Shown in pieces: positions 1 through 38,231 of a stretch of DNA of 64,000 nucleotides. The stretch comes from Limonium bicolor (Eukaryota; Streptophyta; Magnoliopsida; Caryophyllales; Plumbaginaceae): assembly GCA_023374045.1 (NCBI GenBank), contig CM041777.1:466889827-466953826 (forward strand), given 5' to 3'. Within the stretch, counting starts at the first letter, position 1. Each line of letters begins with the position of its first letter. Under the pieces are notes generated by a model. It saw only the letters and a program-made list of their open reading frames with translations, was not told the DNA's origin and made no database searches. A program made the translations under genes and the position numbers.

Positions 1-299
1 AAAAACGTGCTTTAGACTCCGTTAGCGTTTTAACGCCTTATTTGAATCGTTTCTTCCGGAATTTTTTTCCCACTTGTTCTTAGTATGTAATTAGGGTATG
101 AAAATAATTTATAACCCTAGTGAAGGTTATATGCCTCCTAAAATAATTAAATCGCGTTTTCACGTTTTGTGACTTTTACGCATTTTATTTTTTTTCTTTT
201 TGGTTTTTATTTCTTCACCAATGACCTTAAGGACTTAATTAGCCTTAGAAAATAATAATTACATAATTAATTAACACATTAAGGTTTGGGGTATTTCAC
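1..299 (-). repeat. LTR end of a truncated retrotransposon (F)
   Basis: AT-rich sequence ending in GGGGTATTTCA, which read on the minus strand is the TGAAATACCCC start shared by the Ty3-type LTRs in this window. Protease coding sequence begins directly after it, with no polypurine tract. This is therefore best read as the outer end of the 5' LTR of a separate minus-strand element inserted into the protease of element A, and not as A's own 3' LTR. The rest of F lies off the left edge, so the target duplication cannot be checked. Confidence 0.6.
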
Positions 300-735
300 A
301 TAGTGGAGATGACTGTATTTGAAGGCTCTCTCGGTCTCTGGCGGTATGAAACAGTGACCCCAAATGGACTTTTGAGCAGTAATCGATGCTCGGCGCATAG
401 GATTCGTCCCTTGTAACGCTCCAACCAGTTCATTCCAACTATTAAGTCGAATCCCAACCCGTTGAATTTGATGAAGGAGATGGGAAACGCTTCGCCTTTG
501 ATTTGAATTGTGGCGGTGTGGTAATACTTAGTGCACTTTACCCGCTCCTTCGACGGGAGAGTAACCAAAAATTTTGGTAGCTCATCTGCGTCTAGCCCCA
601 ACCTTGTAACGAATGATGGCGATACAAAGGTGTGAGAGGCGCCGGAGTCGAATAGTACTGAGGCTTCGATGTCGTTTACTGGGAATGTTCCCGTTAGGAT
701 GGTGCCGCTCTTGTCGGCTTGTGCTTCGGTGAGGA
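300..735 (-). pseudogene. Retropepsin-like aspartic protease fragment of element A
   Basis: Minus-strand frame open for about 145 codons. It begins with a linker containing LTEAQADKSGTILTGTF, then the active-site loop LFDSGASHTFVS (Asp codon near 647-649), and then the flap-side motif FDLIVGMNWLERYKGRILC typical of plant Ty3 retropepsins. The protease would cut the Gag-Pol polyprotein during particle maturation. The frame ends at 299 only because an unrelated LTR end is inserted there and supplies the TGA, so RT and later domains are separated from it. The sequence to the right (736-910) is non-coding and contains a minus-strand AATAAA at 836-841. Confidence 0.85.
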
Positions 736-910
736 TACTCAGGTTACCTTCGGTACCGAGTCCACAACCTATTGATTCATGAGATTATAAGTAAAGATGG
801 TGGAACGCAAGTGGAATTTAATAACCAACACTACTTTTATTGAATAACCAACCATCATACATACTGTGTCTCTAATACATGTTACTACTGGATTACATGC
901 TAGTACAAGA

Positions 911-1660
911 TTAATACTTTCTAAAGGTAAGGTTCAGGCGTCCTGATTTCATGTGTGTGGCATTGATTAACGCCGGTGGTGCCGTATTCAACTTGATCTC
1001 TGGATCCCGTGATACAGCAACCTTGATTTTCACCCATGATTAGGACATCTCCTGATCTCAATACCAATTTCTCTGCGAGGTCCACACGCTTCTGCTCGCT
1101 ATACAAAAATACGGCATCATCACCAATGGACCGAGACACTACAGGCACTCCTTGTTCAAGAGATTCCGTTGTCTCGTCCTTGTCTTGGTGTAAGCCAAGT
1201 CGTCCTTTTTTCTCATAGAAGTTGACAATACATAAATCTGCTTCAAGTGCAGGGATCGGTTCATCTTCGTACTGTTGTGCGATTTCTACAGCTTGAGTGA
1301 CAAGCGTTTGGAATTCCAGGGGTATTGATGGAGTTGTGGCTCCGTCTCCTGCTCGCGTTGTTTAGTATGTGTTGGTATAAGGGTTCCAATCCTTTCCAAA
1401 GCACATCATCTTCAGCTTCATTGTTGCTTCACCGGGGAATTCGGGTGTATAAAATCCTCCTGGACCCATTCCTAACTCGTTGCATCGTCGGATGATTGAA
1501 ACTTGTGCTTCGGGTGTCAGGTATCCTCTTAATAAGATCATACCTGGGCGGATGACCTGACACTGTTCGTTGTTGAAGTGGTGAGTGGCGATGTCGGTCT
1601 CTTCATGAGGTGAGTTCGAAGGTATGGGTAACAGATAAGGAATTCCTAAGGTGGTAAATT
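911..1660 (-). pseudogene. AlkB-like (ALKBH1-type) Fe(II)/2-oxoglutarate dioxygenase domain inside element A
   Basis: A minus-strand frame covers most of an AlkB domain. It starts with RPGMILLRGYLTPEAQ and GMGPGGFYTPEF, then LKMMCFGKDW, then CIVNFYEKKGRLGLHQDKDE holding the iron-binding HxD (HQD at 1182-1190), then VPVVSRSIGDDAVFLY and SGDVLIMG. After two small indels (near 1030-1045 and 995-1003) other frames give KSRLLYHG (distal His codon 1009-1011) and SGRLNLTFR (920-940, the Arg motif binding 2-oxoglutarate), ending in TAA at 911-913. From RPGM to the stop is about 213 codons, as expected for the catalytic domain. One further in-frame TAA lies at 1362-1364. The family demethylates alkylated or N6-methylated nucleic acid. 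It sits on the gag strand between zinc knuckle and protease. Identity is clear from the motifs; whether it was ever part of the Gag-Pol protein is inference. Confidence 0.88.
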
Positions 1661-1800
1661 ATATCTAGTGTGAGTTCTAGGTTTACTATTCATTTCATGC
1701 TCAATACATATTCCATGTTACTTACTATGTCAATTTCATACTTCAGGTACTTACGCATTCGCATACTCCCATTACAATACTTTAATACTTAGTCATGTCT

Positions 1801-2569
1801 TCAAGGATTAAGGTTACGGTAGTTACCTGGGCCGGACTTAGTCCCGGTCCCATCACGGTCAATGAGTGTAAGGCCGGCTGCCTCTGCGGTGCGCCTTTGC
1901 GGACCTCGGGATCCCTGTCCCTGTGAGGTATGCTGGGCATGAGCATCGCCAGATGCAGTCTCCTTCCTTACGTTGCTTGTAGCCCTGATAGTTGCCCTTG
2001 GGCTTAGAGTTTTCTGGGCATGCATTAGCACGGTGCCCCGGCTTCTGGCAAGTGTAGCAGCGGATCTCCCTTCCTTGGGAATCTATGCCGGGATGGTCCT
2101 TGTTGCAGTTGCGGCATATGTAGCTGTGGCCATCAGATTGGTTCTTGCCCTGGCCAAATCCAGAACCTATAGCTTCCAAGTTAGCAAGGTTCGGTATACT
2201 CACAATACTCTATGTACATACTAGTTCACAAGTGTACTAATTCGGTTCCGGTTTCTTACCCCTATAGGGTTGAGACCTAAGTGGCTTCGCTGCCACTGGT
2301 GCGGTATAGCCAAGCTGCAATGGCTCAGCCGCCTTGCCCTTCTCATGGGCACTACCGTCTCCAGAGGTGCCCTTCTGGTGGGAATGCTTCCCCTTCTTCT
2401 TCTTCCAAGGTTTGGCTTGGTTTTGGTCGTCGGAGGTGTTACCCTTGCCGCTCACCTTGCGCTTCAGCGCTTGCTCCTCATCTCTTAGCTGGCAGGTGAT
2501 CTCAACTCGAGATGCAGCGTGGTAACACTCCTGAATTACTTAGGCATTAGGTTGCACTTACATACGGGA
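1801..2569 (-). pseudogene. Gag C-terminal part: basic linker and zinc knuckle of element A
   Basis: Two open stretches on the minus strand. The first (about 2520-2237) is a Lys/Gly/Ser-rich basic linker with PWKKKKGKHSHQKG. The second (2203-1859) contains CRNCNKDHPG, whose first zinc-binding set has lost a Cys, followed by the intact CCHC knuckle CYTCQKPGHRANAC. This is the nucleocapsid that binds element RNA. The reading then moves to another frame (2031-1801, with RTAEAAGLTLIDRDG). The two parts are separated by a short AT-rich in-frame interruption with stop codons near 2190-2236; a similar interruption lies at about 2525-2575. Confidence 0.75.
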
Positions 2570-2572
2570 ATA

Positions 2573-3286
2573 CTAATTCACATTACTCATGGCTTTTAAG
2601 GGTTCAACGATGTTTACCTGAAGGGAGGTAAACCGTGTGAAGCCCATGCCATACCGGAGTCGATGGCTCAATCCGCCGTAGAAGCGGTCGACCAAGACTT
2701 GGCCGGTATACCCAAGGTCGGGTAGAAGTCTGAGAAGAGAGGTGAAGGTGCGGTAATATTCCAACCGTCATCTTCTGGTCATTTTCAGGGTATCGAGCTC
2801 AAGCCTTTTCTTGGTCTTGACATGCTCGGGATAGTACTTAGATCGGAGAAGAGAGGTGAATGCTTCCCAACCGAATGCGGGATCAGCCACGTGCTCGGCC
2901 TTAATGAGCTTCCACCAGTCCATAGCCGTGTCTTTGAGGTAATACGCAGCTATCGTCACTCGAACTCCAGCGGGAGTCTCAAGTGTCTCGAAGGCCGTCT
3001 CCATCTCGGAGAGAGAGGCCTCGAGCTTGGCGGGGTCGCTCTCGCCTCTAAAGCATGGAGGTCGAAGGTCGGCGACTGCCTTTACCCAATTAGTCTCACG
3101 GGGATGAGGTGGGTCGGGCTGCTGCTGCTGTTGTTGCTGCTGGTGGTTTTACTGTGTTTGTTGTACAGCGGTGATTACATCCGATAGCATCTGTGCTACC
3201 GTGGCGGCGACGATTTCAGCTATCGTCTGCGCGCTTGGTCCGTCATTAGTCCCTCCTCTGGGACGACCTGGACCTCGTCCTGACAT
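2573..3286 (-). pseudogene. Gag capsid region (Retrotrans_gag) of element A
   Basis: Start ATG at 3284-3286 gives MSGRGPGRPRGGTNDG, then a Gln-rich stretch interrupted by one TAA that may have been a Gln codon (about 3145). Next is DLRPPCFRGESDP and the capsid core YYLKDTAMDWWK and FTSLLRSKYYPEHVK, the usual plant Retrotrans_gag signature. A TGA near 2767 follows KMTRR and the same frame continues with LEYYRTFTSLLRLLPDLGYTG and LVDRFYGGL. Gag forms the virus-like particle. It begins about 210 bases downstream of the PBS, a normal leader length. Two stops but no frameshift were seen in this part. Confidence 0.85.
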
Positions 3287-3494: not shown

Positions 3495-3506
3495 GCTCTG
3501 ATACCA
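3495..3506 (-). other. Primer-binding site of element A (tRNA-iMet)
   Basis: The minus strand reads TGGTATCAGAGC, complementary to the 3' end of plant initiator tRNA-Met, five bases inside the LTR end. It forms part of an inverted repeat (CAGAGCGA / TCGCTCTG, 3481-3500). Confidence 0.9.
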
Positions 3507-3970
3507 CTTTTTGTAACACCCCAACCGCTAATCCTTCCATTATCCTCTAATCATTCCCATAATTACCTTACTCGCAGCGGAAAATACTTACTTACCCCGG
3601 CGTGAGGGGGTGATACAAACGCCGTTAACCATCCAAGGTTAACAAGGCTCTACTACTTACCGTATCGGTGACGATTAGAATAAACTGCATACATACTACT
3701 TAGTTTACAATACCAGATACTTACTTACATTTGATTACCGAGTATCTAAGTAAATGAATTACATTCCAAGACTATTCCAAAAAATTAAGAGTTTATACAT
3801 CCACTCTTTTCTATCCAATCATGAATTCATTATCCAAAAAGGGGTGTACCACATGGTACACCGGCTACTTAAAAATGGCCTTAGCCGTGTACAACTCGGT
3901 ACACCATCCCAATCTACTAACTATTTCAAAAAGAATTACATCCTGTCCCTACTCTACCGTCACGCCTCGC

Positions 3971-4090
3971 GGGTACCTGTAGAATAAAAACATTCCCCCT
4001 AGGGGGCCAGCTTACGCTGCATATGATAACCGCATACCCCGCGTGCTAGCGAGGGTACGCCAACTAATTGGTCGAGTACATGCGGTTCGT
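3971..4090 (-). promoter_or_regulatory. Structured LTR leader module with acceptor-like AG (element A)
   Basis: Read on the minus strand: an outer stem CCGCAT/ATGCGG (about 4031-4085), a hairpin CAGC-GTAA-GCTG (4008-4019, GNRA-type loop), a perfect CCCCCTAGGGGG hairpin (3995-4006), then TGTTTTTATTCTACAG followed by G (about 3976). The same order recurs in elements B, C and D, and partly in E. Possible roles are a structured 3' splice site, a polyadenylation/R-U5 signal or a packaging signal. Confidence 0.5.
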
Positions 4091-5183
4091 TTCATTCATA
4101 CATACATACAGGCTTTATACAATACAATTCTATACATTCCATACACAAGGCATACATGCTACAATACCTGCAAGGAAGGACAATTCAAGTCATCCAATTA
4201 TACTTACCGAAAATCACCGCATTACCGGGACACTTCCCCAATTCATACGAAGGTCTTGTTAGCTTCATTACACACCCGGGTTAATCGGGTGTTCGATACT
4301 CTTTTACTCAAGGTCAATGACTTACAATAGTCAAGACCGATACACATACAATACTTACTTCTTACTTACTTTACTCAAGTCAAGTCGGTATGACCTCCGG
4401 GTAGGGATTACTACATCCCACCACCGGGCTTTAGGGTGGCCCACTAATCCAGGATGCTGCCCATTCAAGGGGATTGGTCCATGCAAGAGATTACAGCCAG
4501 GATTCGGATCCAACCTCTTGTGTTTCCTTATCCTCCATGCGTGGCCGAAACTATATCGGACTTCTACTCATTCCATTTACTCATTACTCAAGTTAGGAGT
4601 TATAATGTAGGAATAGTAGAAGTCAGTACTACCTTTCCATACATCAATACAATACACAAGTATCATCATGTACACATACACTTCATTCTCATTCATTCAT
4701 TTCATGAATTGTACAAACTAATTGTTCAAGAAGATACACAAGAACAAAATAGTTCAAACACAGTTAAGTGCAATATAAGTCCGATTCGTGCATTTATCTT
4801 ATTGGTGATCACATAAGCACAAATCGGGGTGGGTAACCAAGTTAGGATACAGGGCATGAAGAAATCATACCGTTCACCGTCGTACTCGTACTACCGGTTC
4901 CTTCAATGTTCAACTATTGATCCTATACATACATGAAGTTGTATGATCAATGATCCATCTTACTTCCATTAATACTCCTAATGTATACTCACTACTCCTT
5001 TACATTCAACTTGGTTATAAAACCTTCTTTTCCTCATTACTTCTTAAATGCTTCCTTACACATTTACTTACTTCCTTACCTTACTACTTCATTTGTAATG
5101 TTCTACCACATATATGCATATATTGTATAGGCATATATATATAAATGATAATATAATCATATAATAAAACTTTTTTTTGTTTG

Positions 5184-9920: not shown

Positions 9921-10968
9921 TGATGGAGAAATATGTGACTACTTCTACCACTTAGGCAGTGTACCTAATCGTTTTGCGGGATAGTGGATTCGTGGGGTTG
10001 TCGTACTCTTGGGGACCTCGCTGTGGATAACTGACAGTGGATTAAATTTACTGAGACTTCTAGTAAATAGATTTTATCATTTTTTTAAGGAGAAGAAATA
10101 ATTACAAACTTAACTTAAACAAAATAATAATAAAAACAATTAAAATGAAACAAAATAATAAAAATAGAAATTATTAATCTTTTTTGTCTTTTTAAGAAAG
10201 CATCCCGGGTTGTTCTGCTCACCTATTTTATCAATTATATTAATATAAACTTCACCACTTAAGTAATAACTCAGAAACTATAAATAATTCGTTGACGACT
10301 AAATCTAACGAACCCTAACCAGTTGCTAGAACTAGCAGCGGACTAATGCTCTAATCCGGACACAACCAATCGCATAAAGAACAGCTTCTATTTGAGACTA
10401 ATTAACCTATAGGCCGGATCAGGCTTCTAGCTGTTAATCAGGTTTAATTCCTATGTCTTGTTTACTATCTCAGCTCTCGCGTGTTGATTAGAAAACTATA
10501 AATATTGCTTTAATAATTGATCAGAGAATTAAAGCAGATGAAGAACTGGAATTAAACTACTACTTTAGATAAAATTATAGTGGAAAGCTTAACATAACAT
10601 AATTATATAAAATAGGCTCGCATCCCAAACCTGAGAGGGCTTAAGTTTATTAATTAAACATAACTATATATAAACAACATTTTAACAAAATAAGAGAAAG
10701 GGTAGAGAAAACTCCAGCTAGCAAGTTGACTCTGAATCCTGGCTCCGCCTCTGTATCCACGTCGTCCGTAATAATAATACTAATTAATGGCAGAGATGTG
10801 GTGTGGTGGAAAAACAAATTAAAATGGAGAAAACGGGGAGAAAAGAAATGGATGTGGTTGTACGTGGTGAGCGAGCGTGGTGGTGAGTGCTCCGGAGAGC
10901 TGATGGTGAATGAGTGTGTTGGGCTTTGGATTAAAGAAGGGATGCCTAATACTGAGGATGGGCGTTGG

Positions 10969-10976
10969 TTTTTATA
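10969..10976 (-). promoter_or_regulatory. LTR TATA box, element 1 (left copy)
   Basis: The minus strand reads GCCTATAAAAACCAACGCCC, a good TATA box in the sense orientation. The equivalent in the 5' LTR is at 15363-15371 and would drive the element RNA. Confidence 0.55.
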
Positions 10977-11204
10977 GGCAGAAGAAATGGGAAGCAGACA
11001 AGAGAGCAGTCAGGACGGTGCAGTCGGTGTGATTAAATGGCGGTGGTGAGCAGATCGTGGGCAGCAGCAATCACAGAGGCGGCGTCACGCGTGCACAAAT
11101 TAAGGTGGGCGCCGAAGGAGTCTGCAATTAATGAAGAGCAGTTCGAGTGCGGCGCCGCGAAGAAGGAAGAAATCGCCGCGAAGAACGACTCCGCGTCGGA
11201 TTTA

Positions 11205-11400
11205 ATCTCGTCTGCTTGCCCAGTCCGCTTGTGCGTCCGCTCGAAAACAGGCGGACACCTCTTGTGTCTGCGCCTCTCTTGTCCGCTACTTATCAGGCGG
11301 TTGCGCCTCCTGTGTTGTCCGCCTCGTATCAGGCGGTCGCAGCCTTCTCGTGTCCGCGCCTTATCAGGCGGTCGCAGCTTCCTCTTGTCCGCCTCTTTGT
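11205..11400. repeat. GC-rich GTCCGC/GGCGGTC hairpin cluster (left LTR of element 1)
   Basis: Four or five units alternate GTCCGC(CT) with TATCAGGCGGT(C/T)GC, giving repeated short hairpins. The copy in the other LTR is at about 15600-15795, and a related cluster lies in the LTRs of Athila-like element 2. Confidence 0.75.
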
Positions 11401-11680
11401 GATGTCAACATGTGGACGTGTATATTTGTGTTGCCATTTTTGACCGGCTCTAGATTCTTCGTTATAAGTCCGTTTTACTCGCCGTTTGTTGCGTTGGAAA
11501 GCTCATGAGATCATCTATCCATTTACATGGCTTTTTCCTACATTTAACACATAAAATATATCAATTCATATCAAAACATAAATCTAGGAAAATCGTAAGA
11601 TAAGTGAGAAATACGACACAAATTGTTATGAAAATAGGAAGAATTAAAGCCCTAAAAGTAGATGTATTTCTCGCTTATCA

Positions 11681-13694
11681 AACTTCCTCACACTTAGCTT
11701 TTGCTTGTCCTCAAGCAAATAGAGAATAAATATATCTCTAAGGCCGTAGTGTCAAACCTCAGGATTAAACAGATGCAAAACAGAGCAAGCAAAGTGACAA
11801 TCAAAAGAATAGTTCTGCTCCTGGTTGTAGGTTTTCGCAAACAGTGAAAAAGAATTTTTTTTAAAGCATGGATAAGTTAGACTACAAAATCTGAATGTGG
11901 ATTAACTTGGGATCTTCCACCATTTCTTTCCTTTAACCTTTGGATGACAAGGGGTGTGAAGTAACGCCTTATTCCGCGATACCTTTCAACACCACATACT
12001 CATGATCAAAAACAAAAATTAAACTGCAATTAACTCTTTTCGTATGTAAAAACATTCTTCTTCAAGAAATATATACAACACAATTGAATAATTGCGAATT
12101 GCAGAGTTTTTTCCGTAACCCAGACTTTTCTCTCTATCCTTGTAACGGTGTTGGGCCAACTATCCCAGATCACGAGACCTTAGGTAGATAGGTGTTAAGG
12201 CACCCCTAGGACTTAATAACCGGATAGACGAGGCCTGCTTTTGTTAGGAAAATTTTTGATCAGCGGAGTACCTTGCCTTATCCTTTCATTCCAAACTTTC
12301 ATATCATTTCCAAAATCCCAAGATAAACTAATTCAGTTTCCCTAATCAACTTAATCCACCAAATTTTGGGAAAACAGATTCATTTGAATAAAACTATATA
12401 TACAAACAACCTAAAGCAGAAAGATTCTTGAGGTGGTCACCTGGCTTCACTTCAAAATTTATGCAAAAATTTCACCCAAGAATTAACATTTATAAGCACT
12501 CAGAGCAGTGATTCCCTCAATGCAAGAAGACAATTAAAAACATGTGTGGCATTAAGTGCAACTGGCATATTTTCAGGGAAAGGTCTAAACTACGCCAAAA
12601 ACTTAAGAGGAGCAATGTCCTCATTGTTCATAAAATAATCAAGAAAAGACCTTTCAAAATATGCCAGACTCATGAAGAATTTCATTCAGGACAATCATGG
12701 ACTGATATAATAATAATCATTAAGCGTGATAGACTGGACACAAACATTTAAAATAAAGAAACTGAGACTCCCCTGATATCGTAGATTGAGGAAGGTGTCC
12801 TTCCTCACACTTAAGTGCGAAAATGGGGGTAGTAGCGTTCCTCACACTTGCGTTCAAGCAAGTGTCCAGCCTTGGAGTTCTTCAGATACCATGATAAGAA
12901 TTTCACCTGTGCACACTACCCAAAAATAAACGCTAAAAAGCGTTGCATTAAAGCACAGATTCCATTGTCACTTCTTGAGAAAAAGAAAAATAAAAATAAA
13001 AATAAAATCATAGACAAAATTAAAATAAAACCATATGCTCCCTTCTTGCATTTTAATTTTTTTTTTTGAAAAGAAAAATCACATAGGATAGTATAAATAA
13101 TAAAATATAACAAAAATAGGATACTAAGAAAAATAAAATATAAAATAAGATAATAAGATAATAAAACTTAACCACTGGGTTGCCTCCCAGTAAGCTGCCC
13201 GTAGTTTTAGTCTTTGGCTAGACTATCGCTTCGTTATCCTGGATCAAAAATAAAAGTAGATAATATCTTCGCCAGGAAAACGAAGTTAGTAATGATAAAA
13301 AGCAAACCACCTGGATCAAAACAAAATGTTACTTCGGCAAATAAAATAGGAAAATGAATACTCCACAAAACCTGGTGTTTGAGGAGGTACTGCCGGTAAC
13401 GTAGTTTTAACAGGAGACCAGGTGTGATTGCTTTTCTTCCTCAAATTGGAGGATGTAAACATCCTCCTCTTGCTGTTGAGGCTTATGGAGGCAGGATGGA
13501 AGTTGATGAGAGACCGGTGGTAGTGGTTTCCTTCCTCAGATTCGAGGATGTAAATTTCCTCTTCGGTTGGTGAGGCTCAACAGGATAGCGCTCTTCCAGC
13601 TGGTTGACCGGCTCAGACACAATATCTTAATTTTAATTGTTCTCCTGTGTTGGGGATGGAGATGGAGGAAGATTGTAACTCTCAGACATTTGTT
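11681..13694. other. Non-coding interior of Athila-like element 1
   Basis: No convincing reading frame. It holds the polypurine-like tract at the LTR edge (11681-11694), a hairpin TTGCTTG-tcct-CAAGCAA (11701-11718), further polypurine-like copies near 12797 and 12841, a GCAATG-tcct-CATTGTT hairpin near 12611-12628, two covariant hairpins at 13174-13225, and a twice-repeated motif around TACATCCTC (about 13436-13565). Confidence 0.7.
13174..13225 (-). other. Paired hairpins conserved with element 2
   Basis: ACTGGG-ttgcct-CCCAGT (13174-13191) followed by TAGTCT-ttggct-AGACTA (13208-13225). The same positions in element 2 carry compensatory base-pair changes (58107-58157), which supports a folded RNA downstream of the reading frame. 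Confidence 0.65.
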
Positions 13695-14320: not shown

Positions 14321-16075
14321 TGATGGAGAAATATGTGACTACTTCTACCACTTAGGCAGTGTACCTAATCGTTTTGCGGGATAGTGGATTCGTGGGGTTG
14401 TCGTACTCTTGGGGACCTCGCTGTGGATAACTGACAGTGGATTAAAATTACTGAGGCTTCTAGTAAATAGATTTTATCATTTTTTTAAGGAGAAGAAATA
14501 ATTACAAACTTAACTTAAACAAAATAATAAAAAACAATTAAAAAAACAAAATATAAAAATAGAAATTATAAATCTTTTTGTCTTTTAAGAAAGCATCCCG
14601 GGTTGTTCTGCTCACCTATTTTATCAATTATATTAATATAAACTTCACCACTTAAGTAATAAACTCAGAAACTATAAATAATTCGTTGACGACTAAATCT
14701 AACGAACCCTAACCAGTTGCTAGAACTAGCAGCAGACTAATGCTCTAATCCGGACACAACCAATCGCATAAAGAACAGCTTCTATTTGAGACTAATTAAC
14801 CTATAGGCCGGATCAGGCTTCTAGCTGTTAATCAGGTTTAATTCCTATGTCTTGTTTACTATCTCAGCTCTCGCGTGTTGATTAGAAAACTACAAATATT
14901 GCTTTAATAATTGATCAGAGAATTAAAGCAGATGAAGAACTGGAATTAAACTACTACTTTAGATAAAATTATAGTGGAAAGCTTAACATAACATAATTAT
15001 ATAAAATAGGCTCGCATCCCAAACCTGAGAGGGCTTAAGTTTATTAATTAAACATAACTATATATAAACAACATTTTAACAAAATAAGAGAAAGGGTAGA
15101 GAAAACTCCAGCTAGCAAGTTGACTCTGAATCCTGGCTCCGCCTCTGTATCCACGTCGTCCGTAATAATAATACTAATTAATGGCAGAGATGTGGTGTGG
15201 TGGAAAAACAAATTAAAATGGAGAAAACGGGGAGAAAAGAAATGGATGTGGTTGTACGTGGTGAGCGAGCGTGGTGGTGAGTGCTCCGGAGAGCTGATGG
15301 TGAATGAGTGTGTTGGGCTTTGGATTAAAGAAGGGATGCCTAATACTGAGGATGGGCGTTGGTTTTTTATAGGCAGAAGAAATGGGAAGCAGACAAGAGA
15401 GCAGTCAGGACGGTGCAGTCGGTGTGATTAAATGGCGGTGGTGAGCAGATCGTGGGCAGCAGCAATCACAGAGGCGGCGTCACGCGTGCACAAATTAAGG
15501 TGGGCGCCGAAGGAGTCTGCAATTAATGAAGAGCAGTTCGAGTGCGGCGCCGCGAAGAAGGAAGAAATCGCCGCGAAGAACGACTCCGCGTCGGATTTAA
15601 TCTCGTCTGCTTGCCCAGTCCGCTTGTGCGTCCGCTCGAAAACAGGCGGACACCTCTTGTGTCTGCGCCTCTCTTGTCCGCTACTTATCAGGCGGTTGCG
15701 CCTCCTGTGTTGTCCGCCTCGTATCAGGCGGTCGCAGCCTTCTCGTGTCCGCGCCTTATCAGGCGGTCGCAGCTTCCTCTTGTCCGCCTCTTTGTGATGT
15801 CAACATGTGGACGTGTATATTTGTGTTGCCATTTTTGACCGGCTCTAGATTCTTCGTTATAAGTCCGTTTTACTCGCCGTTTGTTGCGTTGGAAAGCTCA
15901 TGAGATCATCTATCCATTTACATGGCTTTTTCCTACATTTAACACATAAAATATATCAATTCATATCAAAACATAAATCTAGGAAAATCGTAAGATAAGT
16001 GAGAAATACGACACAAATTGTTATGAAAATAGGAAGAATTAAAGCCCTAAAAGTAGATGTATTTCTCGCTTATCA
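14321..16075 (-). repeat. 5' LTR of Athila-like element 1
   Basis: 1,755 bp, nearly identical to 9921-11680. It includes a TATA box (15363-15371, minus) and a GC hairpin cluster (15600-15795). It is followed by the ATCAC target copy at 16076-16080. Confidence 0.93.
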
Positions 16076-16349
16076 ATCACTACTCCAAATATTTATAAAA
16101 TCTTTATAATATAATTGGAGTGTCTAGGAATTCTTCCAAGATTTATTGACTTATAAATCTTGTTATTAAATTCATAATACCATATAATAAATTAAATTAA
16201 ATTGTATTATTATTTAGGATTCAATCAAAGAAATCCCTTGAATAATTTTTAAATATTACCATATAATAATTTGATGTTTAATAATATTATTAAGGGTTTT
16301 AACAAAAGTCATCCCCTAAATTAATTTAAATTTATTTAGGGGTATTTCA

Positions 16350-17713: not shown

Positions 17714-19554
17714 TGTAACACCCCTACCGGTAATCACGCCATTAACTCCTAACCCGTCTCAATTACCAACAACAATGCAGCGGAAATTCCAATACAACCG
17801 GGGGTGAAACAATGCCGTTAGTCACCCACGTGACTAACAAGGCCAGTCCAAACTCAATTACAAAAATTAAATACAATATCAGTCTGATGGGTCTTATACC
17901 GAGTACACTATACAAACAATACTTCCATTACTTACTCAAACCTCAACCAAATACAACTTCAATCCCATATTATACATTACAACTTCAAATACATTCTATA
18001 CCGAGTATCTCCTACAATTCCTAACTTATTGACCACATGTCGGTCTTACAATTCCACATTACAAAACAATTACAAATTCCTAAACAACTACCCATACTCA
18101 CATGGCAACCCGTCCTACACTCGAACGGTATCCGGCTTCATTATTCCTGTAAAATAAAAACGATGCCCCTAGGGGCTCAGTAAAATTGTTGCATATGATC
18201 TCCGCATACCCCACGTACTAGCGAGGGTACGCCGGCTATTTGGTCAAGAGCATGCGATTAATTTTATTTCAATCAACATGCATACAACATACATTATATA
18301 TCTACATTCACAATCAAAGTTCAATATTGAACACAACCACTAACACACGCATCAGGAGGTTAGTTTGATATTTTCTATACTTAGGCTTGAGGGTTATACC
18401 TCACTATGCCTAAATTCATTCTACGTTGTCACCCACTCACTTGGGTTACCCTTACTCACAATCTCAACAAGTTCTACGATGATCAACTCAATTCTCCACT
18501 CATCTCAAATTCTCAAGTTTCTCAAGTCATAACTCCATTCTCAATACTCACATACTCAATACTCAAGTTCTCCAATCAATACTCAAAGATATATGTTAAG
18601 TCATTACTCATGACCATCGGGCAGGGTCATACACAGGACTCACCATCAGGCTTACAAATACAAAAGGGGCTATGCAGTTAGCTCCTCAAGTTCACCAATG
18701 TCCAGTTCTCTACCGGACTACTCAAATTCCCAAACTCCTTTCTCGGAGTCATTTCTCATTCTCATGGATTAGCCTAGAGGTATCTCTCTAGATAACATCT
18801 ATTGGTTTAGGGAATTCTCAATGTCTAGTATTCTAAGATTATGGTCTTACCTCACTTAACGAATACTCTCATGCTCGTGACATTGTTCATTTTAGTCGGT
18901 TCCTCTCATTGGGGTTCGACTATATTTCTAAGGGGTTTGGTGATCCCTTACCAAGCTTTACTTTGCTCAAGGTTCATATTTTGAACAATTATCAATCCTC
19001 TAGATAGAGGTTACTCATATACTTCCACTAATACTTATCGTGTGGATTAAATCAATTCGGTTCTATAACCGTTATCGGGAGGTTACTACTCCCGTATACT
19101 TTCTCACGTTCTAGTGAGTTCATAAGTTTATGTTACCGTGTATAGGTTCGATAGTTGTAGTGTGTTTCCACCTTTTTGTTAGTTCGCAACTTGACTCTTT
19201 CTACGAGTCTCAACTCAAACAAGACTCAACTATGAGTCGCACTACCATACACAATCACATTCAAGCAATCCATTCACAATTCACAATTCATTTATTATAC
19301 AAACTTTAGTTCAAAATACAATACAACATAAGCACCAATAAGTGCAAACAATCCGATTCATGCATTTATCTTGTTAGGTGTTCACACAATCAAACAAGTA
19401 CACAAATCGGGGTAACCAAGTTAGGATACAGAGCATGTAGAAATCATACCTTTCACCGGGGTTAACTTTACTAGGTGTTCTCACGTTCCTTGGCTCACAC
19501 TTGTTCCTCGTGTCTTACTCTTGAACCACTAATTACATGTCAAATGGTTCAAAT
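17714..19554 (-). repeat. LTR of element E, cut by D
   Basis: Starts TGTAACACCCC and carries the GCAGCGGAAATTCC segment seen in other LTRs here. The leader module (GCCCCTAGGGGC hairpin and acceptor-like AG near 18148-18176, outer stem CGCAT/ATGCG near 18200-18256) matches that of element A. No PBS lies left of 17714, so this is the outer end of a minus-strand element. It is interrupted at 19555 by D; the remainder lies beyond the window. The flanking TTCTA (17709-17713) may be its target copy. Confidence 0.65.
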
Positions 19555-20908: not shown

Positions 20909-21205
20909 TGTAACACCCCAACTCAATCCAAATGTGGTCTCGCAACTTAACAGCATATATATATACATGTCACAGCGGAATTCTTTACACTCCAGGACCT
21001 TGCCACGGTCTGACTACAGAATATACCGAACATTAGTACATAACAACCTTAACCAAATACATATTCTTCTTACAATCCTCTCAACAACCTATACATCTTA
21101 CTAACTCAATTGCCATACGAGTGTACATGCACAACTCGTAGGTCACACTTAATCCTTAACACTTGTATCCTCTTCTTACTCTTGCGATGGCCGCTTCCTG
21201 ATGTA

Positions 21206-21315
21206 CCTGTGTAGTAAAAACAGCCCCCAAAGGGGTCAGCACGAATGCTGGTACGATCCCCTCATGGCCCCCAAGCTAACGTGGCTACGACGACTAATTG
21301 TCGATAGCATGGAGG
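21206..21315 (-). promoter_or_regulatory. Structured LTR leader module (element B, left LTR)
   Basis: On the minus strand: outer stem around CCTCCATG, hairpin CAGCA-TTCG-TGCTG (21237-21250, UUCG-type loop), CCCCTTTGGGG hairpin (21225-21235), then TGTTTTTACTACACAG followed by GTAC. The right LTR copy is at about 30850-30963, and D has the plus-strand equivalent at 37808-37917. Confidence 0.55.
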
Positions 21316-22624
21316 TTGATTATAAGCACAACATAATAGTAAATGCTGTAAACAACAATCCAAATATGAACAATCAAAGTTCACACACAATGAACGACTT
21401 AAATGCGTTCCCTTAATTAGAGAGTTAGTTATTTAACTCCTTAAATAATGTTCCCTCTTAATCTTAGTCCATCCTTATCTCACCTCAATCTTAGTCTTAT
21501 CTTAATCTTAGAAACCACCATCCTTTAATAAGGAGTGGATGTCGCTTATCTTAATCTTAATTATACAAACCATCCTTTTAAGAGGAATGGTTGCAACTCA
21601 TCTTAACTTTACCTTAATCTTAAACTTAACAATACAAACCATCCTTTAAAAAGGAATGGTTGCAACTTATCTTAACCTTACCTTAAGTATGCCAACCGTT
21701 CTCTCATTGGGAACAGGTTAGCCCTTAGTTCATTGTTTATTTTTGTAGGGCTTGGTTAACCCTAGCCAGCAGGACACTTACCGGCAATAAACAACATTCT
21801 TAAATTGTTGGGGATGTAGGCTTGATCCCCCCACGCCATCTTAAAGCCACCTACCTTGGACTGGATGTCCAATGTAGCTGAGCCGGTCAACCGACCCAAG
21901 GCTACTAGTCCGAGGACTAGTCCTTAATTGGAAGTCGAATCTGCTATAGATACCGACCCCCTTTCCTTAGCATGCATGACCGGAGATCGGTCCCGGGTTT
22001 CCTCACTCATGTTCCAGTTAGTAGTAGTCTCAAGACCATGTTTGTTGGTTAACCTCTTTCGGTTTATATCGTCCCTTATTAGGGGGCGTTCCTTAGTCTC
22101 ACTCAATTCCTTACTAAACATTGGTTAGTAAGTTCTCACGGTATGTTGTGTTAGTTTTCAAACATCACACAACAATACAATAGGTATAATATATTCCGGT
22201 TGCATGCTTTATCTTGTTTAGTGAGCACACAAAAACAAATAGCACACAAGCCGAGGGACACCTCGTTAGCAAGCAGGTCACAAGAGAACTGTACCGTTCA
22301 CCGTTGGCCGTTCAGTTGCTTAATCTCTTCCGGAGTCCAATTTCCAAGTCCTAAAACATTCATTCAGTTTTAGGTTGTTAATCACTTAACTCAATTCAAC
22401 TTACTTATCTTACTTAACTTACTTAACCCTTAATGACTCCAACCTAAGACCTCTTAAGTCTTACAACTTAATCTTACAAACTTAATCTTAAACTTTTAAG
22501 TTTATTCTTAACTTAATCCCTTAGGTCTTTATGCCTCTAATCATCATTGCCCCCTTAATGGGGTACCATTAATACCACTAAACTCTCTTAGGGTTTCTTC
22601 TTCTTTTTTTTTTTTTTTTTTTTA

Positions 22625-22750
22625 TGGTCCGACCGACCCACCGACCGACCCACCCCTGGGTAGGTCGGCTGCAGAGAACATCCAACTTCACAGTTTCAGC
22701 CCGACCGACCCAGACTGGGGTCGGTCCCCTGGGTAGGTCGGCTGCAGAAA
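22625..22750. repeat. GACCGACCC palindromic repeats in B LTR
   Basis: Two units built from GACCGACCCA and its inverse CTGGGTAGGTCGGC ending in CTGCAGA. The second LTR copy is at 32268-32388. Confidence 0.75.
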
Positions 22751-25357
22751 CTTCTCATACATTGTCAAACTTTCTCCAAATTTTTCCTCAAGCCTCCTAA
22801 TGTGTTCTAACATCATTTGGCACATCAAACCTACCTTATAACCTCCACCAAACTCATTAAAACAACTTCCAAAGATCTTCTCAAACTTTTACTCAATTCT
22901 TACAAGAAATTCCTAACACTTGTCAATTAATTCCTTATATTTCTAACATGTATCCTTACCAAAACTTCTACTACCTAAAGTGTTTCTCTTCAACCCATAT
23001 AACTCCTCCTTAACATCATTACACTTCATCTTTACTTGTTAAACCTTCCAAGGTTATCTTGCATGTCCATGCACAATTTCTCTTCTTTTCACTTGTCACT
23101 CATCACTCTTAAACTCTTAAGCTTGCTTATACATTTCTTTCCATTCTCTTAATACCTTGACATTGTTCTTCATTTACCTTGATGACTTACAACATCCTCC
23201 TACCTTTTTCACTTCCATCACCCAAGTCCACACATTACCATTCAACTAAACCTTACTAGTCCACCACTAACATCACCACCTCTTACACAAACTTCTCGAA
23301 CTCTCATTGTTCTTCTCTTAGTTCATACCTAAATCTCCTTAAGGCATTATACACCTTTCCTTAAAACTTATACACAAGTCTTACACTCCTCATACCATGA
23401 ATTTGGTGTGTTCAATACACCCACCTAAACTCTAACTTCCTCATAGACCATTCTAGGTCATTCTCATCCTTAAGAACTCCTTAGTTAACTCATTTCCACT
23501 CAAATTCTTCATAATGACTCCTAGTAAATCCTAGGTCATATTAATTCACCACCATCACCTAAACACTTATTTTCTACTCAAATTTCGCCATAGCTCCTCT
23601 AGTATATTCTCATGCCCAAATGCATTGTTTTTCTCACACAATAATCTCACTCACACCAAGTCCTTTCTCATCTTATTTTCTCACCCAAATCAACTTATTC
23701 ACATCATACTCAATATATTGCAATAATCTTAAATTGCATAGCACTAAGGCTCTTAAATGACATGGCTCTTAGGCCCTTAAATGACTTAAACTTTAAACAC
23801 TGAATTTCCCATATATAAAAGCCTTCAACCTGCAAATACACCCATCAATCTCATAGTAGTTATAATGCTCTTAAAATCCACCTTGAACTTATACTACTAA
23901 CTCATTCTCATTGGCTCCTTAGTCACAAGTTCACAAGCTTATTTAAGTTCTTTTCTTAGGTTATATAACCCAATACACAATGTAAGCTCTAAGCCACATT
24001 GGTATCCACTTAAACTCATCCCTTAAAACTTAAACCACCATTAGGTAAGCATTTTACCTTGTTTTTCAAGCTTATCTTAACTTCCTCCTTAGACCTTCTT
24101 CTTGCATAGATCTCGGCCACCACTTAAATTCCTTTTGCCATTGTTCTAATCAATATTTAAGGACTCATATGAGTACTAAACAATGCACTAACCTCAAGGA
24201 ATAAAAACCTAGGTTAGAAATGTGTTCTAAGGCATAAAAGTGGATGATTACCTTTGAAGTCTCAAGGTAGACTTTGGCATTGAATGAAATAGGACATCCA
24301 CTAGTCCTTGGTGAATAAATCAAGCTAGAACAAGGCATAAAAACAAGGCCCCATGAGTAGAAATTTTCGGCCATGTAGAAGAAATGGTGGAAACTTGATT
24401 TTTCTTGCATATTATTTACCTTAAGAGAATGGAGAAGCTAATGAGCTCTTCAAACTTGATTTTCCTCCATCAATGAAGTTTCCTCATGGCACCAAAATGG
24501 AGCTTTGAAAGATTTGAAAAGATAGAAAGATAGGTCTTGACCTAACTAAGAATAATATGTGTTTAGTTTGATTTGGAGCTAAAATGAGTAAGTTGTTGCC
24601 AAAGCAAGGTGAAGCAACAATGGAGGCTGCTTGGAACGGTTTGGAACAGAGGAAAAGAAGAGAAGAACCGTGGAAGAAGAAGAGAAATGAAGAAGAGAGG
24701 AGAGAGGTAGACTAATATAAGGTAGTTGCTTTTATAAAGCAAATAGTAACTTTTCTCACTTTACTCTTCTTTTCCTTCTCATTTGATGACTCATGTGGTG
24801 ACTCCCCACATCAAAACCGGCCCCCTCTATTAAATGGAGATATTTATGGTCTTGGTTGACCATCTTATTGACTTATGTTGACTTATGACTTAACTAGCAC
24901 TAAATAGTTACTATTCACTAATCAAGGCACATAATCGGGAAATTTTGATTTCTCATTGATTTAGACCTCCTAATGTGATACTAATTAGTACACATGTTGT
25001 TTAAAGAGTAATGATGGACATTTAGCCACTCAAAACTCAATTCTAAAACAATTTCTCAAAAATGTGCTTTAAGACTTCTTAAAGCACATTTTGTGTTTTA
25101 ACTTGTTTTCAAGCTTGGTTTTCTTTGCTAATTGATTTAAAATGACCATTAGAATATTACTAAGGTCTTATCATGATATTTGGATACTCACCCAAGTCTC
25201 TCCAAGCTTAGAGCACGTTTTTGCCCTGATTGCCTTTAAGGCACTTTCTTGTGTTTTCCTTGGTTTAAATTGTCTACCAATCTTTCTAAGGCATATTTTA
25301 GCCCTACTATATCATGATTTGATGTTTACTTAACATACTTAGGTTTGGGGTATTTCA

Positions 25358-25393
25358 ATCTACCCCCTTAAAAGAACTTTGTCCCCAAAGTTC
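25358..25393 (-). other. Polypurine tract and hairpin of element B
   Basis: The minus strand reads TTTTAAGGGGGTAGAT directly against the LTR start, preceded by the hairpin GAACTTT-..-AAAGTTC (25374-25393). It would prime plus-strand DNA synthesis. A second tract with its own hairpin (GATTACG/CGTAATC, 26537-26554) lies at 26519-26534. Confidence 0.8.
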
Positions 25394-28300
25394 CCATGCA
25401 TCTTTTCTTCTTAGAATGCATGTCTTACCTCATTCCTTAGATCATATAGATCATACTTATGTATACTTAATCTCATTGGATCATTGGATCCACCATATTC
25501 TTATACTTAAATATCACACAACATGCTTAAGCATGTGCAGCATTCAAAATTCCTTTTGTTCCTTTTGATGATTAAAACATTCACATAACTTCCAACGTAT
25601 TCTCCCATGTCACCGGTCCGTAGACAATGGCTCATTCGTCCTCGTCACCATGGGCCAGAATACAAAACACGCTGCTCTCCCCATGTCACCGGTCCGAAGA
25701 CAAAGGCTCGTGCGTCCTCGACTTCATGGGCGAGACTCAGTAAAAAGGTAATCCTTTTTACGAGGTCATGTGAGGAATAATTCCTCTAATTAAAAATACA
25801 AGCAACTCCAATTTCATTTTATCCTAAGGTCTCTATCCTTAGTGTGATTTAATTGTGACCACTGGTAGGGAGTTTCAGGAATCATCCAACCCTGATGTGA
25901 TCAGCATCAGTGTAGAACTATCCTTCCACCCCAATTTGTGTTCGGTTTCCCTTGATCCCTAGAAAATCAAGTTCCACCTCCCACGTCATTTTCAAACATC
26001 AGATAATTCACTCATGTCCAATTTTCTATCTATTTAGTTCTTCTAATCATAATCAATACATCTCCAAAGTGTGGACTCAGTCCATCAAACATTCCCAATT
26101 CATCTCTTAATAATTACCTCAGACTTAAATTCCTACTAAATTCTATATCAGTCTCATACCAACTTCCACTGTCTCATACCACATAGCATTACTATCTTCT
26201 TCCTCATACTCATATCAAATGATATCTCATAGTGTTATCTTATTCTATCCCACACCTAGTCATATCGACTCATACCTCATATATTCCTTATTTCTTAAGT
26301 CTCCTTAATCTATTAATCCTCTTCCTTAATTCTCTTAACTTGTACTCACACCGGAGTTAACAAGATAGGTACTTAATTGTATGGTATTCACATCTTCTGT
26401 GTGTAACAACCATGATTTATCTCAAAATGTTTATGTAAAACATATTCTCAAATTATTTTGTGCTAGCACACCGTAGTTTATGTACTCAGTACACAAACAT
26501 ACGCTAAGCGGTTTTCGCTCTACCCCCCTTAAAATGGATTACGCCCACGTAATCAACATTACATGATCTTTGAACATAAGTTCAAGATGTCTAATTCTTA
26601 CCAAGCATTCTAGCTTCCACGTTATCTATCTTACTTATAATTCGATCAGAAATGACTTAGTCTCTGTATCGAGGATTCTTAACGGTACTTATACCGTATT
26701 CTTAACTTAGTTTGGTCTAATCTCAAGGTAGTGGTCTGCTAGCTTCCGCTGCGCGACTCTGATAATCTTAGGCTTAATTGTCTCAATGGACATGTGTTAT
26801 CTTTATATATACACGGTCTTAATGAGTTGTAACTCGTCTATCCATTCTCCTTGAAGATCTTATGCTCATACTCTTAGTATTTTCTCGAATGTCTAAATTG
26901 TTCTCCCCAACTGACCTTTGGTCTGAGGATGATTCTTAGTCTGAAACTACTGTTTAGTGCATAATGCGCTTTACAGTCTTAATCCCTTACATCCTAAGAC
27001 ATATCCAATGTCTGTACTTAATAATCCGTGCTTTTCGCACTTCATAGTCCTTAATTATCTGTTCTCTGGTTCCTCTGTGTTGCTGGTTCAACTGAATTCT
27101 TCTTCTCGATTGTTTGTGGTAGTAGCTGTTCTTGTCTGATCTTGCGTCGTTGTCTGTGGTACGGAGTCGACTACCTCCCGTGTTCCTTACACCACTCGTC
27201 TACATGCATGGGGTACCTTACTGGTACATTACTACTTACCCAACTAACTCATAAATGAGTGTGTTAGGCCTACAAGCCCCTGTGGGGTGCAGTCGTCCCA
27301 CGTCTCGTTTTAGTAAACTCATAGTGTCCGTCACACGTTTAGCTATTGCTAGTTATGAAGTATTCTGTTGTCGATCTCCTCTTTCATTGTTCCATAATAA
27401 CATTTATTGTTCTTCTTGAAGTTAATCAAGGGAAGTCCATTTACTGTGTTCCTGGGTATTGTATGCTCTAGCTCTTTCCTGTATTCCGTATTGATTCGGT
27501 CACTTAATATCTGAGGTCTCTTTCCATAGAGCCTCCTATCTTGTTTCTCATATTTATGCTAATAGGAATGCACTTCCAGTTCCTTAAGGAATGGGTAGTG
27601 TGCTTCCTGTGAAATCTCACCTAACCAGGTCCAGACTACTGGCATCAATGCACAGCTCGTCTACCATCTTATTTCTTTACTTATACTGGTCTTAACTCAT
27701 AAATCTAATTGCCTCAGTGTCATATTTGACGGCTCATACATAATGGTCGCCTTACCGCGCACCATGACTTAATCACCTTTCTAACTATTGTACTCACGAC
27801 CACTACTATCGTGGTAGTTGGCCCTTACCATGTTGCCCATTGCTGGTGCAACCTCTTATTCACTTATTCTAATGTCTTACCTTATACTCAATCCCTTCTT
27901 GGTGTAAACACACTGGGAGTTCTCTCATTCCGGTATTGGCGGTTGTCGTACCGTGTTGTAAAATAGTTGACTCTTGATATGAAGATGTTATGCTCCAATC
28001 TCAGATTCGTAAGTAGGCTAATTTCTCTCGCTTTCTTTCATCCTTAACGATGTTATCTACCATGTAGTTTGACTGGTTACTGAAGAAGTCATCCGCTGAT
28101 TCACAAGCTCCTCTGAGCATTGATTAATTGACGTGCCATAATGTGTAGTCACAATGTTTATCTCTGACCATTACTAATTCTTACATCCTGGGTGTTGGAT
28201 ATGGGGTCTATCTGTGCCACCTTCCTTATTACTCAAATGTATCTGATATATTCTAAGGTAATCTCAAGTTTCAGAGTTTTCATTTTCTAAATAAAGTGTA

Positions 28301-30537
28301 TTTTATCTCTAATAGGTGAAAGCCCTTTTGAGGGGTTCATTCCCACTCATGGCCTCACAACAAGGAGAGGTATCCCCACCCTAAAGGCATGGTTCGTTCT
28401 CCGCTCTTGTCCTTAGCATTATCTCAATATTCTCATTGGTACCCTTTCTTGGTAATATCTTCCCAATCTAAGTTATAGGTTTGGTAACCGTTCATATCTA
28501 CAAATTGTAGTCCCTTCATGGCTTAAACAAGCTCTCTTCTAACTTATTGCGCCTCGGGCTCTGATGTGGTTAACATCTTGGCTCGTAGGCTCTTAATGCT
28601 TAATGTCTCAGTTCATTATTTGTACTCTTACTCATCTGTAGGTTATTCTTATAAACTTCTGGTCCCTTGGAACACCATCAATCATTAGGTTACATACCAA
28701 ATGTAGTATCGGGTTTCATGGTAAATTGTTACATCCTGCTTCCTGCTAGGGAAGTTGTTCAGGTGATCTGAGGTTACTTAATGTCTTTGACAATGCTGTC
28801 ATTCTACTAGACTTCTGTCTTTTAATAGTCAAGGTTAGGCCCGTATCAGGCGTTTGTCTTACATGTCCAAGTTGGATATCATCCTGTCATCTTATACTCC
28901 CATCTCAACGCTTCGTTCAACCTCTGTTGATTACGCCACCCTTTGATGATCAATCATACTTGGGTGTTAATGAGTTAGACGAACAGTACCAGCTGTCATT
29001 CATCAGTTTGTTCGGCTCGACTATGCCCGCTCTGTGGGGGTAGTCCTCTGAGCTTTCCTTTTTCCAGGGTTGTACGACTTTAATTCTTAGTAGGTCATAG
29101 CTTATGTTTATTATCTTTTACCCTTGTTTTCTGGGTTTCCGTCATCTTCATTGAAGAATGTTGTTATTGGTATCCTTAATGGTCACTCTGGGAGTCTTAT
29201 CCCGTTTTCGTTGTAAGTCGATGCTTCAACAGTCTCAATAGTATCTTATAATACATCCCTTGTATGTCATTGCTTATATAGTGTTTTTGCTCGCGATACC
29301 GAGCAATCTCTTAGGTTTTCCCTTTGGAGTTTGAGATTGGTGTTCTTACCGTACTGTCGGTTGTTGTTGTAGTGGGTTATACCGTTGCTAGTATTTATAT
29401 GGTTTAGTATTTCGTCTAAGCTCAGCTCCCTGCTGGCTGATGTGTCGGTTCATCTCATCATGGTCAGGCCGTCAGGCCCTTCCAAGGTCCTATTTTTTTT
29501 CCTGTTCTTATGGATTTACAATCCGGCATTAATATATGCCACAACTGTAGCGTTCTCCTATTTCGCCTTGATGGCTTTTCGTGTGGCTTAACCGTGGTAG
29601 CACTTGCTATGGCAAGTGCGCCATGCAGGATGGGTTATTGGTACAAGGCACGTTGGAAGTGAAACTTCCTTCTAATTTCCATGTAATTGGTAGTCCTCGG
29701 GACTCCTTCGATAATCTCTTATTTTGGATAACCGTCCACCCGGCAGTTTCCTTGTTGTTTGACAGTACTGTCCTTTATAAGGGTCCTCTTCTGAGAGAAC
29801 CCCTTAATATTTCATTATGTGTTAATCTACGCTCTTGTCTCCACCACATTGGTGTGGTTACTAAGTAATGTTTCTCCTTCAGGCAACTAATCGTAGTCCT
29901 ATTTTGGTATACAATGTATGGGTTTCTACCGTCGTTGCATTATGTCAGCCAGGTCCTGTAACCTTCCTCGTAATATGGGGTTTGGAGTTCCCGTTTCTAA
30001 CTGGACTTTCCAGTAATCTCAATCCTCGTGCTTTGTATTTTTCCCCTGTTATGCTCACTCGGACCGCTGTCGGTATTCTGTCTCTTATCATCTTATCTAT
30101 TGCCTCGTCTTCTTATCATGGTATGGGGGTTATTTCGACTGTGTAGCATGTCGACCCATGTTGCCGGTAATTACCGTTCCTTTACTGATAGTATTCCATA
30201 GGTAGCGCCTGTTTCTCTGTTGATGCGCTCCATTTAAAATCTCCCAGTTCTCCATAACTGTTGTACGACAAGTTGTTTCTCGTATTGCTTACTGTTAGCT
30301 AACTGCCAGATCGGGTTTCCCCGAGTAAGAGAAGGCTTTCTTCTCTCTGGCGTTTGTTCCACATATTTAGGGTTAGGGATGTGGAGGGCGGGCCTAGGTA
30401 CTATGGATATCCGGTAAACACCGGGGAGTCCTGGCTAACGCACCTCACACTCTATCTCTCAACCCTTAACCCACAACTCAATCTCAACCTCATCATTCTC
30501 CTAAGTTCGGTATTTCTTGTCTTCAGAGCGTAACTAC
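25394..30537. other. Non-coding interior of element B
   Basis: About 5.1 kb without a supported gene. The longest open frames are under 100 codons and show no known domain. Notable content: two units bounded by CCCATG...CATGGG (25604-25654 and 25679-25730), a second polypurine tract at 26519-26534, and overall similarity in inverse orientation (roughly 80% by eye in compared stretches) to the interior of D (38232-43300). Confidence 0.75.
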
Positions 30538-30549
30538 GCTCTGATACCA
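30538..30549 (-). other. Primer-binding site of element B (tRNA-iMet)
   Basis: The minus strand reads TGGTATCAGAGC. It is part of a perfect inverted repeat CAGAGCGTA/TACGCTCTG (30524-30543) that could hide or present the site. Confidence 0.92.
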
Positions 30550-30553
30550 CTTT

Positions 30554-38219: not shown

Positions 38220-38231
38220 TGGTATCAGAGC
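38220..38231 (+). other. Primer-binding site of element D (tRNA-iMet)
   Basis: TGGTATCAGAGC four bases after the LTR end, inside the inverted repeat CAGAGCGTA/TACGCTCTG (38226-38245). Confidence 0.92.

Follow-up and report, generated by a model that had tools for sequence, protein, structure and literature searches.

How does an AlkB-type demethylase come to lie between the nucleocapsid and the protease of a plant retrotransposon, and what might the element do with it? The question was raised by a single stretch of Limonium bicolor DNA, 64,000 nucleotides long, which we call the window. An ALKBH1-type AlkB is found between gag and protease in three subfamilies of elements as well as in the window copy, and one genome contains a few hundred such copies or more. 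The best explanation, and in our judgement a probable one, is that a single AlkB was captured, has been held by purifying selection, and would serve as an alternative 3' exon of an intron-bearing gag, yielding Gag-AlkB in the one case and Gag-Pol in the other. A Ty3 element with an AlkB was already known. What is new here is the class of AlkB, its place and the intron architecture: a gag apparently split by introns, with AlkB sitting inside the last of them behind a putative acceptor and ending at its own stop.

A decayed element in the window

Every feature of the window copy lies on the minus strand. It begins with the end portion of a 5' LTR (3512..4879), which carries TGTAACACCCC at 3512, ends in TGTTACA adjoining the primer binding site, and matches LTR-like sequence at 18146-19458 at 78-79%. 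The primer binding site, TGGTATCAGAGC (3495..3506), is an exact match, presumably of the initiator-Met tRNA type; the window holds four exact occurrences of it against 0.17 expected. Gag follows in three pieces. Exon 1, the capsid (2618..3286), gives PF03732 and Ty3_capsid matches in open frames, with one TAA, one frame change and a start codon that we assigned by reading the sequence. Exon 2 (2260..2530) is an open frame that could be aligned in 20 copies, and exon 3 (1827..2166), with one frame change, carries the CCHC zinc knuckle (zf-CCHC, 3.4e-6). Putative introns 1 (2531..2617, 87 bases, GC 0.37) and 2 (2167..2259, 93 bases, GC 0.39) separate the three. Putative intron 3 comes in two parts, one from the nucleocapsid donor to the AlkB acceptor (1646..1826) and one from the AlkB stop to the protease acceptor (769..910, GC 0.32), and between them lies the ALKBH1-type exon with its own stop (911..1645; the sequence-only reading had drawn it as 911..1660). 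The retroviral-type aspartic protease (299..768; RVP_2, 1.7e-28) is cut off towards the reverse transcriptase. The order gag, CCHC knuckle, AlkB, protease on one strand had thus been read correctly, with Retrotrans_gag, zf-CCHC and RVP_2 each matching where expected.

The AlkB domain itself is recognizable in two pieces, with PF13532 matching at 921-1361 (minus strand; E 6.2e-21, above the Pfam cut-off) and at 1362-1658 (minus strand; E 0.008, below it). When the two open frames are joined, with the stop written as X, they match rice ALKBH1 (5xeg) at 1.5e-53, whereas bacterial AlkB reaches about 2e-13. The HQD, YHG and RLNLTFR motifs named in the sequence-only reading are all present, YHG and RLNLTFR in other frames. 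Decay had been put at one in-frame TAA and two small indels. The TAA is there (1364-1362), and the indels prove slightly more numerous: the frame changes near 1034 and 1000 are joined by two further small indels near the 5' end, found by hand alignment. With one TAA and several small indels in AlkB, and one TAA and two frame changes in gag, the two have decayed to a similar degree, as had been supposed.

The protease frame extends to about 299 and is directly adjoined there by an LTR start (TGAAATACCCC; 1..298). In two other elements of the window a similar LTR start comes behind a polypurine tract; here none precedes, so this LTR is probably a nested insertion, and the rest of pol would then lie beyond the window. 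We considered that the window element might be non-autonomous for want of a reverse transcriptase, and dropped the idea: the LTR start sits on the protease with no polypurine tract, and pol is present in other copies. The window copy is a dead, diverged and decayed member of the family, cut by an LTR after its protease.

A family of hundreds of copies

The PF13532 profile, run against the window's own 2.92 Gb genome, gave 38,325 loose candidates, 150 of which were scored; every one of the 150 covered the whole domain and 149 were free of stops. A second search, with a host-type query, scored 104 of 46,568 candidates; we saw no place in common with the first list, and by our own count 73 of the 104 had no stop. 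Both lists were selected by score and the counts are lower bounds. From the first set we read 20 copies, each in a span of about 10 kb, and from the second 12 loci, which form subfamily III.

In the first set, gag precedes AlkB in 20/20 copies by alignment and the start of the protease stands behind it in all 20. In the second, gag and nucleocapsid matches come before AlkB in all 12 loci and pol follows in 11, the exception being L039. AlkB therefore stands after gag in 32/32 inspected loci, and in 31 of them it is followed by protease or by more of pol; the strict zinc-knuckle pattern is present in 26 of the 32. Among the 20 copies, 19 match the primer site exactly and 17 show the LTR start TGAAATACCCC, and a 1007-residue pol frame in one of them, L027, holds RVP_2, RVT_1, RNase H and integrase in that order, with RNase H matches at one place only. 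Gag, CCHC knuckle, protease, reverse transcriptase, RNase H, integrase, LTR start and primer site identify a Ty3 LTR retrotransposon. A chromodomain-like PF00385 match lies behind the integrase in 4/4 frames scanned (E 2.9e-5 to 4.4e-4, below the Pfam cut-off), and we describe the family as chromovirus-like.

Capture as a trait of a lineage, which had been proposed from the one copy, is borne out by the arrangement in 32/32 loci, by selection on AlkB and by a single group in the tree. The proposal would have fallen had no other copy carried AlkB, and other copies do; nor did we see a poly-A tail or target duplication when we looked by eye for an insertion signature around the AlkB segment. All 32 loci were found through AlkB, so they do not give the share of the family that carries it.

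Among the places returned by the host-type query, the 12 that we fetched were all element copies, none of them a host ALKBH1 gene. The window AlkB, padded with X to 914 residues and compared with database proteins of about 500-1600 residues, gave four matches, none with a gag domain. The gag capsid piece had 85 candidates in the protein database, of which none passed, and viral contigs searched with AlkB and with the protease yielded no relatives.

Two further observations concern the way the elements sit in the genome. In L039 an LTR-like start (TGAAATACCCC) stands directly behind the AlkB stop, much as one stands behind the protease in the window, and related elements seem to insert into each other. 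In C1, near 497439466-497470353, four AlkB matches spaced 10.0-10.1 kb apart look like a tandem array of elements sharing LTRs.

A gag interrupted by putative introns

The gag of the window is interrupted by AT-rich stretches that start with GT and end with AG, and similar stretches flank AlkB on both sides; once they are set aside, the reading is continuous. Their GC content is 0.32-0.39, and every 87-base stretch of the gag exons has at least 0.425. Scored against a plant splice consensus, the three donors rank 2nd, 3rd and 4th of the 142 GTs in the region, while the four acceptors are only moderate (6th, 9th, 12th and 31st among 230 AGs); the site most like a donor in the whole region is at 1543, within AlkB. 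Both ends of introns 1 and 2 (GT and AG) and the donor GT of intron 3 are conserved in 20/20 copies and in the window, while the intron interiors vary from one subfamily to another. Homology to AlkB opens at an AG|G in 20/20 copies, and TAG|G precedes the protease in just as many.

Subfamily III lacks intron 1, and the same codons are contiguous in 12/12 loci. Presence in one lineage and exact absence in another at one codon boundary is the mark of a true spliceosomal intron. The difference between subfamily III and subfamilies I and II suggests intron gain or loss within one retrotransposon lineage. Elsewhere subfamily III keeps much of the pattern, with the intron 2 donor in 5 of the 6 loci read and a protease acceptor CCCAG|G in 9/12. 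The conserved GT-AG stretches that interrupt gag bear the marks of introns; that they are removed by splicing we infer from the sequence. The stretch upstream of AlkB, compared with the N-termini of the database proteins P0004 and P0007, was equalled by 69 and 23 of 200 shuffles, and it is therefore treated as intron.

The gag of subfamily III also contains, slightly further on, another GTAAG...CAG stretch (L040, L041, L043, L045, L046 and L047; about 640-760 in the orientation of the match), present in 6/6 loci read and not seen in subfamilies I and II.

How AlkB might be joined to Gag

If these are introns, what would be made? Most likely it would be a Gag-AlkB fusion produced by splicing, with Gag-Pol as the other outcome. 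Joined to the AlkB acceptor, the nucleocapsid donor would give a Gag-AlkB terminating at the stop of AlkB itself; joined to the protease acceptor, it would skip AlkB and give Gag-Pol. RNA left unspliced would serve as the genome of the element, and the introns would in that way survive replication.

The reading frames bear on this directly. In 30/32 copies the AlkB acceptor needs one base supplied by the exon before it (L015 and L023 are the exceptions), and 14 of the 18 copies that are open from knuckle to donor supply that base. L023 supplies none, which fits its own AlkB frame, shifted by a frame change near the acceptor. L013, L019 and L024, all of subfamily II, supply none either, and in them neither AlkB nor the protease would be joined in frame, the protease phase having been read by eye and in few copies only. 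The joining model thus fails in three of the four readable subfamily II copies as they stand; L027, in phase with the AlkB acceptor, differs from them. The three may share a frame change in the linker, or may use another way of joining. In the other 14 copies the frame from knuckle to donor contains stops, or no knuckle was found.

The chief competitor makes AlkB a gene in its own right that sits within an intron of gag, translated alone from an internal ATG, from a non-AUG start or from its own transcript, and never fused to Gag. Subfamily I lends it something: an in-frame ATG lies just before the domain in 10 of 14 copies and at the domain edge in three, the frame of L009 being broken, and independent translation there is possible. 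By eye, most subfamily I copies, like the window copy, show an AATAAA-like motif behind AlkB, and in the Phalaenopsis elements discussed below AlkB is a separate ORF (PMC9289625). Subfamily II tells against it. There the first in-frame ATG comes at residue 82-94, inside the catalytic domain, in 6/6 copies, though AlkB is under selection in this subfamily too; here at least, translation has to begin further upstream, most obviously in gag. The AG|G that marks the start of AlkB homology in every one of the 20 copies, and the split codon that fits the gag donor in 14 of the 18 readable ones, count against it as well. We regard a nested, independent gene as unlikely, with a real if minor chance of being right, and favour the alternative 3' exon.

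Selection on AlkB

Pairwise pN/pS for AlkB is 0.17 in subfamily I (55 pairs), 0.14 in II (15) and 0.18 in III (45), against 1.27-1.62 within subfamilies when the two shifted frames are read. Comparisons between subfamilies, in which synonymous sites are near saturation (pS 0.70-0.90), give 0.27-0.30 in frame and 0.96-1.65 out of frame. The protease of the same copies gives 0.12 (I) and 0.20 (II), close to the AlkB values. Reverse transcriptase gives 0.05 in II and 0.29 in I, where it and the RNase H yardstick are spoiled by poorly aligned stretches, mainly of L025. Copies with AlkB stops were left out (L009 and L015 of the 20, L039 and L042 of the 12); L023 entered the first comparison and L016 the second only. 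The copies were chosen by AlkB score, which favours an intact AlkB, and the ratios are therefore biased downwards. AlkB is kept by purifying selection in the element copies.

Could AlkB instead be a passenger exon, copied along without benefit to the element? Many copies are young, so little decay would be expected in any case, and a function for AlkB is itself inferred. The ratios of 0.14-0.18 within and 0.27-0.30 between subfamilies, set against about 1 or more in shifted frames, nonetheless make a passenger improbable, in a sample biased to intact AlkB.

A continuous Gag-AlkB-protease polyprotein, with AlkB as a normal segment and the AT-rich stretches as products of decay, is less probable again. 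Gag, AlkB and protease do lie in order on one strand, and the place between nucleocapsid and protease claimed for AlkB in the sequence-only reading stands. A plain polyprotein segment it would not be, since it appears to lie inside an intron behind a splice acceptor. A stop of its own closes AlkB in all 20 copies of the first set, intact copies show separate frames, conserved GT and AG delimit the flanking AT-rich stretches, and gag and AlkB are joined in no database protein of about 500-1600 residues. As for a one-off retrogene or host fragment fallen into a dead element, with which the window copy alone, its AlkB intronless and followed by a polyadenylation-like motif, would be compatible, that idea is refuted and has virtually no chance of being right, given the same arrangement in 32/32 other loci and the grouping of the window AlkB with those copies.

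Class, origin and age of the captured enzyme

In the 20 copies YHG, GRL(N/S)LTFR and NFY are present without exception, and LGLHQDxDE in all but L018 and L028 (18/20). These correspond in sequence to the iron and 2-oxoglutarate motifs. A structural model of P0004 (mean pLDDT 87.5) has OsALKBH1 as its best structural match, ALKBH5 structures coming far lower. By sequence, by the modelled structure of P0004 and by motifs, then, the element AlkB qualifies as ALKBH1-type. Plant ALKBH1 genes, such as that for rice ALKBH1 (PDB 5xeg, 5xoi), have fold and sequence in common with it. They differ in a long N-terminal part, which the element AlkBs lack, and in a loop of about nine residues, found in most aligned plant ALKBH1 proteins and likewise absent from the elements.

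A tree of 29 proteins included 13 from elements (the window, four of subfamily I, three of II and five of III). These 13 form one group with five anonymous ORFs (91/91), apart from eight plant ALKBH1-type proteins, seven of them named and the eighth P0009. P0004 is sister to subfamily III (99/97), and P0003 to subfamilies I and II and the window together (96/93). The anonymous ORFs may come from other plants or from relatives of the window's species, and their nested place fits one capture before the subfamilies split. AlkB was probably captured once, by an ancestor of the three subfamilies.

Some copies are young. LTR comparison, tried in 10 copies, gave long alignments for L011 (97.2% identity), L014 (97.4%), L018 (98.2%) and L016 (92.7%, with many gaps); that of L026 covered only 121 bases and five copies gave none. 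At an assumed rate of 1.3e-8 per site and year, the substitutions in these alignments date the insertions to roughly 0.3-1 million years ago.

Comparison with known elements

The sequence-only reading had known of no described plant Ty3 lineage with this arrangement. An AlkB-bearing Ty3 lineage had in fact been published, so that what stands is the difference in AlkB class and position (PMC9289625). It was the one plant LTR-retrotransposon lineage with an AlkB enzyme that came up in the open-licence literature searched. Gypsy_Pa_2799 of Phalaenopsis, published in 2022, is a Ty3 element with an AlkB (2-ODD) ORF2 (PMC9289625). These elements are described as Tat/Ogre-like, with an ALKBH5-like m6A demethylase that binds RNA and demethylates m6A in vitro (PMC9289625). 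The same study reports no such AlkB domain in other-species consensuses among 121 genomes, the authors adding that their method is ill-suited to low-copy families (PMC9289625).

The Phalaenopsis lineage and the window's family share a core: both are plant Ty3 elements with a captured, multi-copy AlkB-family demethylase whose cofactor residues are kept. They differ in several respects. The Phalaenopsis enzyme is ALKBH5-type and encoded in a separate ORF2, with all Gag-Pol domains in one ORF1; by the same account the reverse transcriptase is Tat/Ogre-like, the primer site is that of an arginine tRNA, and the element spans 25 kb with LTRs of 6.4 kb (PMC9289625). In the window's family the enzyme is ALKBH1-type and lies between gag and protease, gag is intron-bearing, the end is chromodomain-like, the primer site is TGGTATCAGAGC and the repeat unit in the tandem array is about 10 kb.

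Introns offer a second comparison. Plant LTR elements are generally without them, Ogre and EVADE being named as exceptions (PMC12786077). In those two, introns are kept in the genomic copy and splicing yields subgenomic RNAs (PMC12786077); the window's family would resemble them. Unlike Ogre and EVADE, it would have several short gag introns and an enzyme exon between alternative acceptors. Plant RNA viruses of the Alphaflexiviridae, Betaflexiviridae and Closteroviridae are a third case of an RNA-based element with its own AlkB, likened here by description only; in them AlkB is a domain of an unrelated viral protein (PMC9289625).

What the enzyme may do

The AlkB of this plant retrotransposon family is apparently an optional piece spliced onto the coat protein. 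The enzyme would travel with Gag and demethylate the element's single-stranded RNA or cDNA; an alternative target would be unpaired DNA such as R-loops. According to published work on the host enzyme, ALKBH1 acts preferentially on 6mA that lies in single-stranded or unpaired DNA, and 6mA at R-loops increases when rice loses ALKBH1 (PMC10469495). By extension from that preference, the element enzyme may act on the single strands of the replication cycle or on the unpaired DNA of chromatin.

There is a bolder version of all this, which we hold tentatively and place somewhat on the doubtful side of even. The lineage would set its Gag to Gag-Pol ratio by alternative splicing, the short product being a Gag-ALKBH1 in the particle that would remove methyl groups from adenines in the element's single-stranded RNA or cDNA, or in R-loop DNA at the target; and this would be a second, independent acquisition of AlkB by plant Ty3 elements, of another class and possibly in several plant genomes. 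A second case with another class of AlkB would suggest that adenine methylation is a recurrent control point between plants and the retrotransposons they carry. An intron-bearing gag with an enzyme exon between two acceptors is a concrete, testable mechanism, with hundreds of copies, some of them young, in which to look for it.

Other repeats in the window

The window has further residents. Two large LTR elements lie side by side in opposite orientation (20909-34997 and 34998-45455) with no long open frames inside. The LTRs of the first are about 4.4 kb and 98.8% alike, and both elements resemble the AlkB family in primer site, polypurine tract and LTR ends; their appearance is that of non-coding elements parasitic on a related one. 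A direct repeat of about 1.76 kb (9921-11681 and 14321-16076; 99.2% identity, 4.4 kb apart) probably represents the LTRs of a young element, and another of about 1.59 kb (55360-56947 and 61452-63031; 99.5% identity, 6.1 kb apart) is probably a second young pair.
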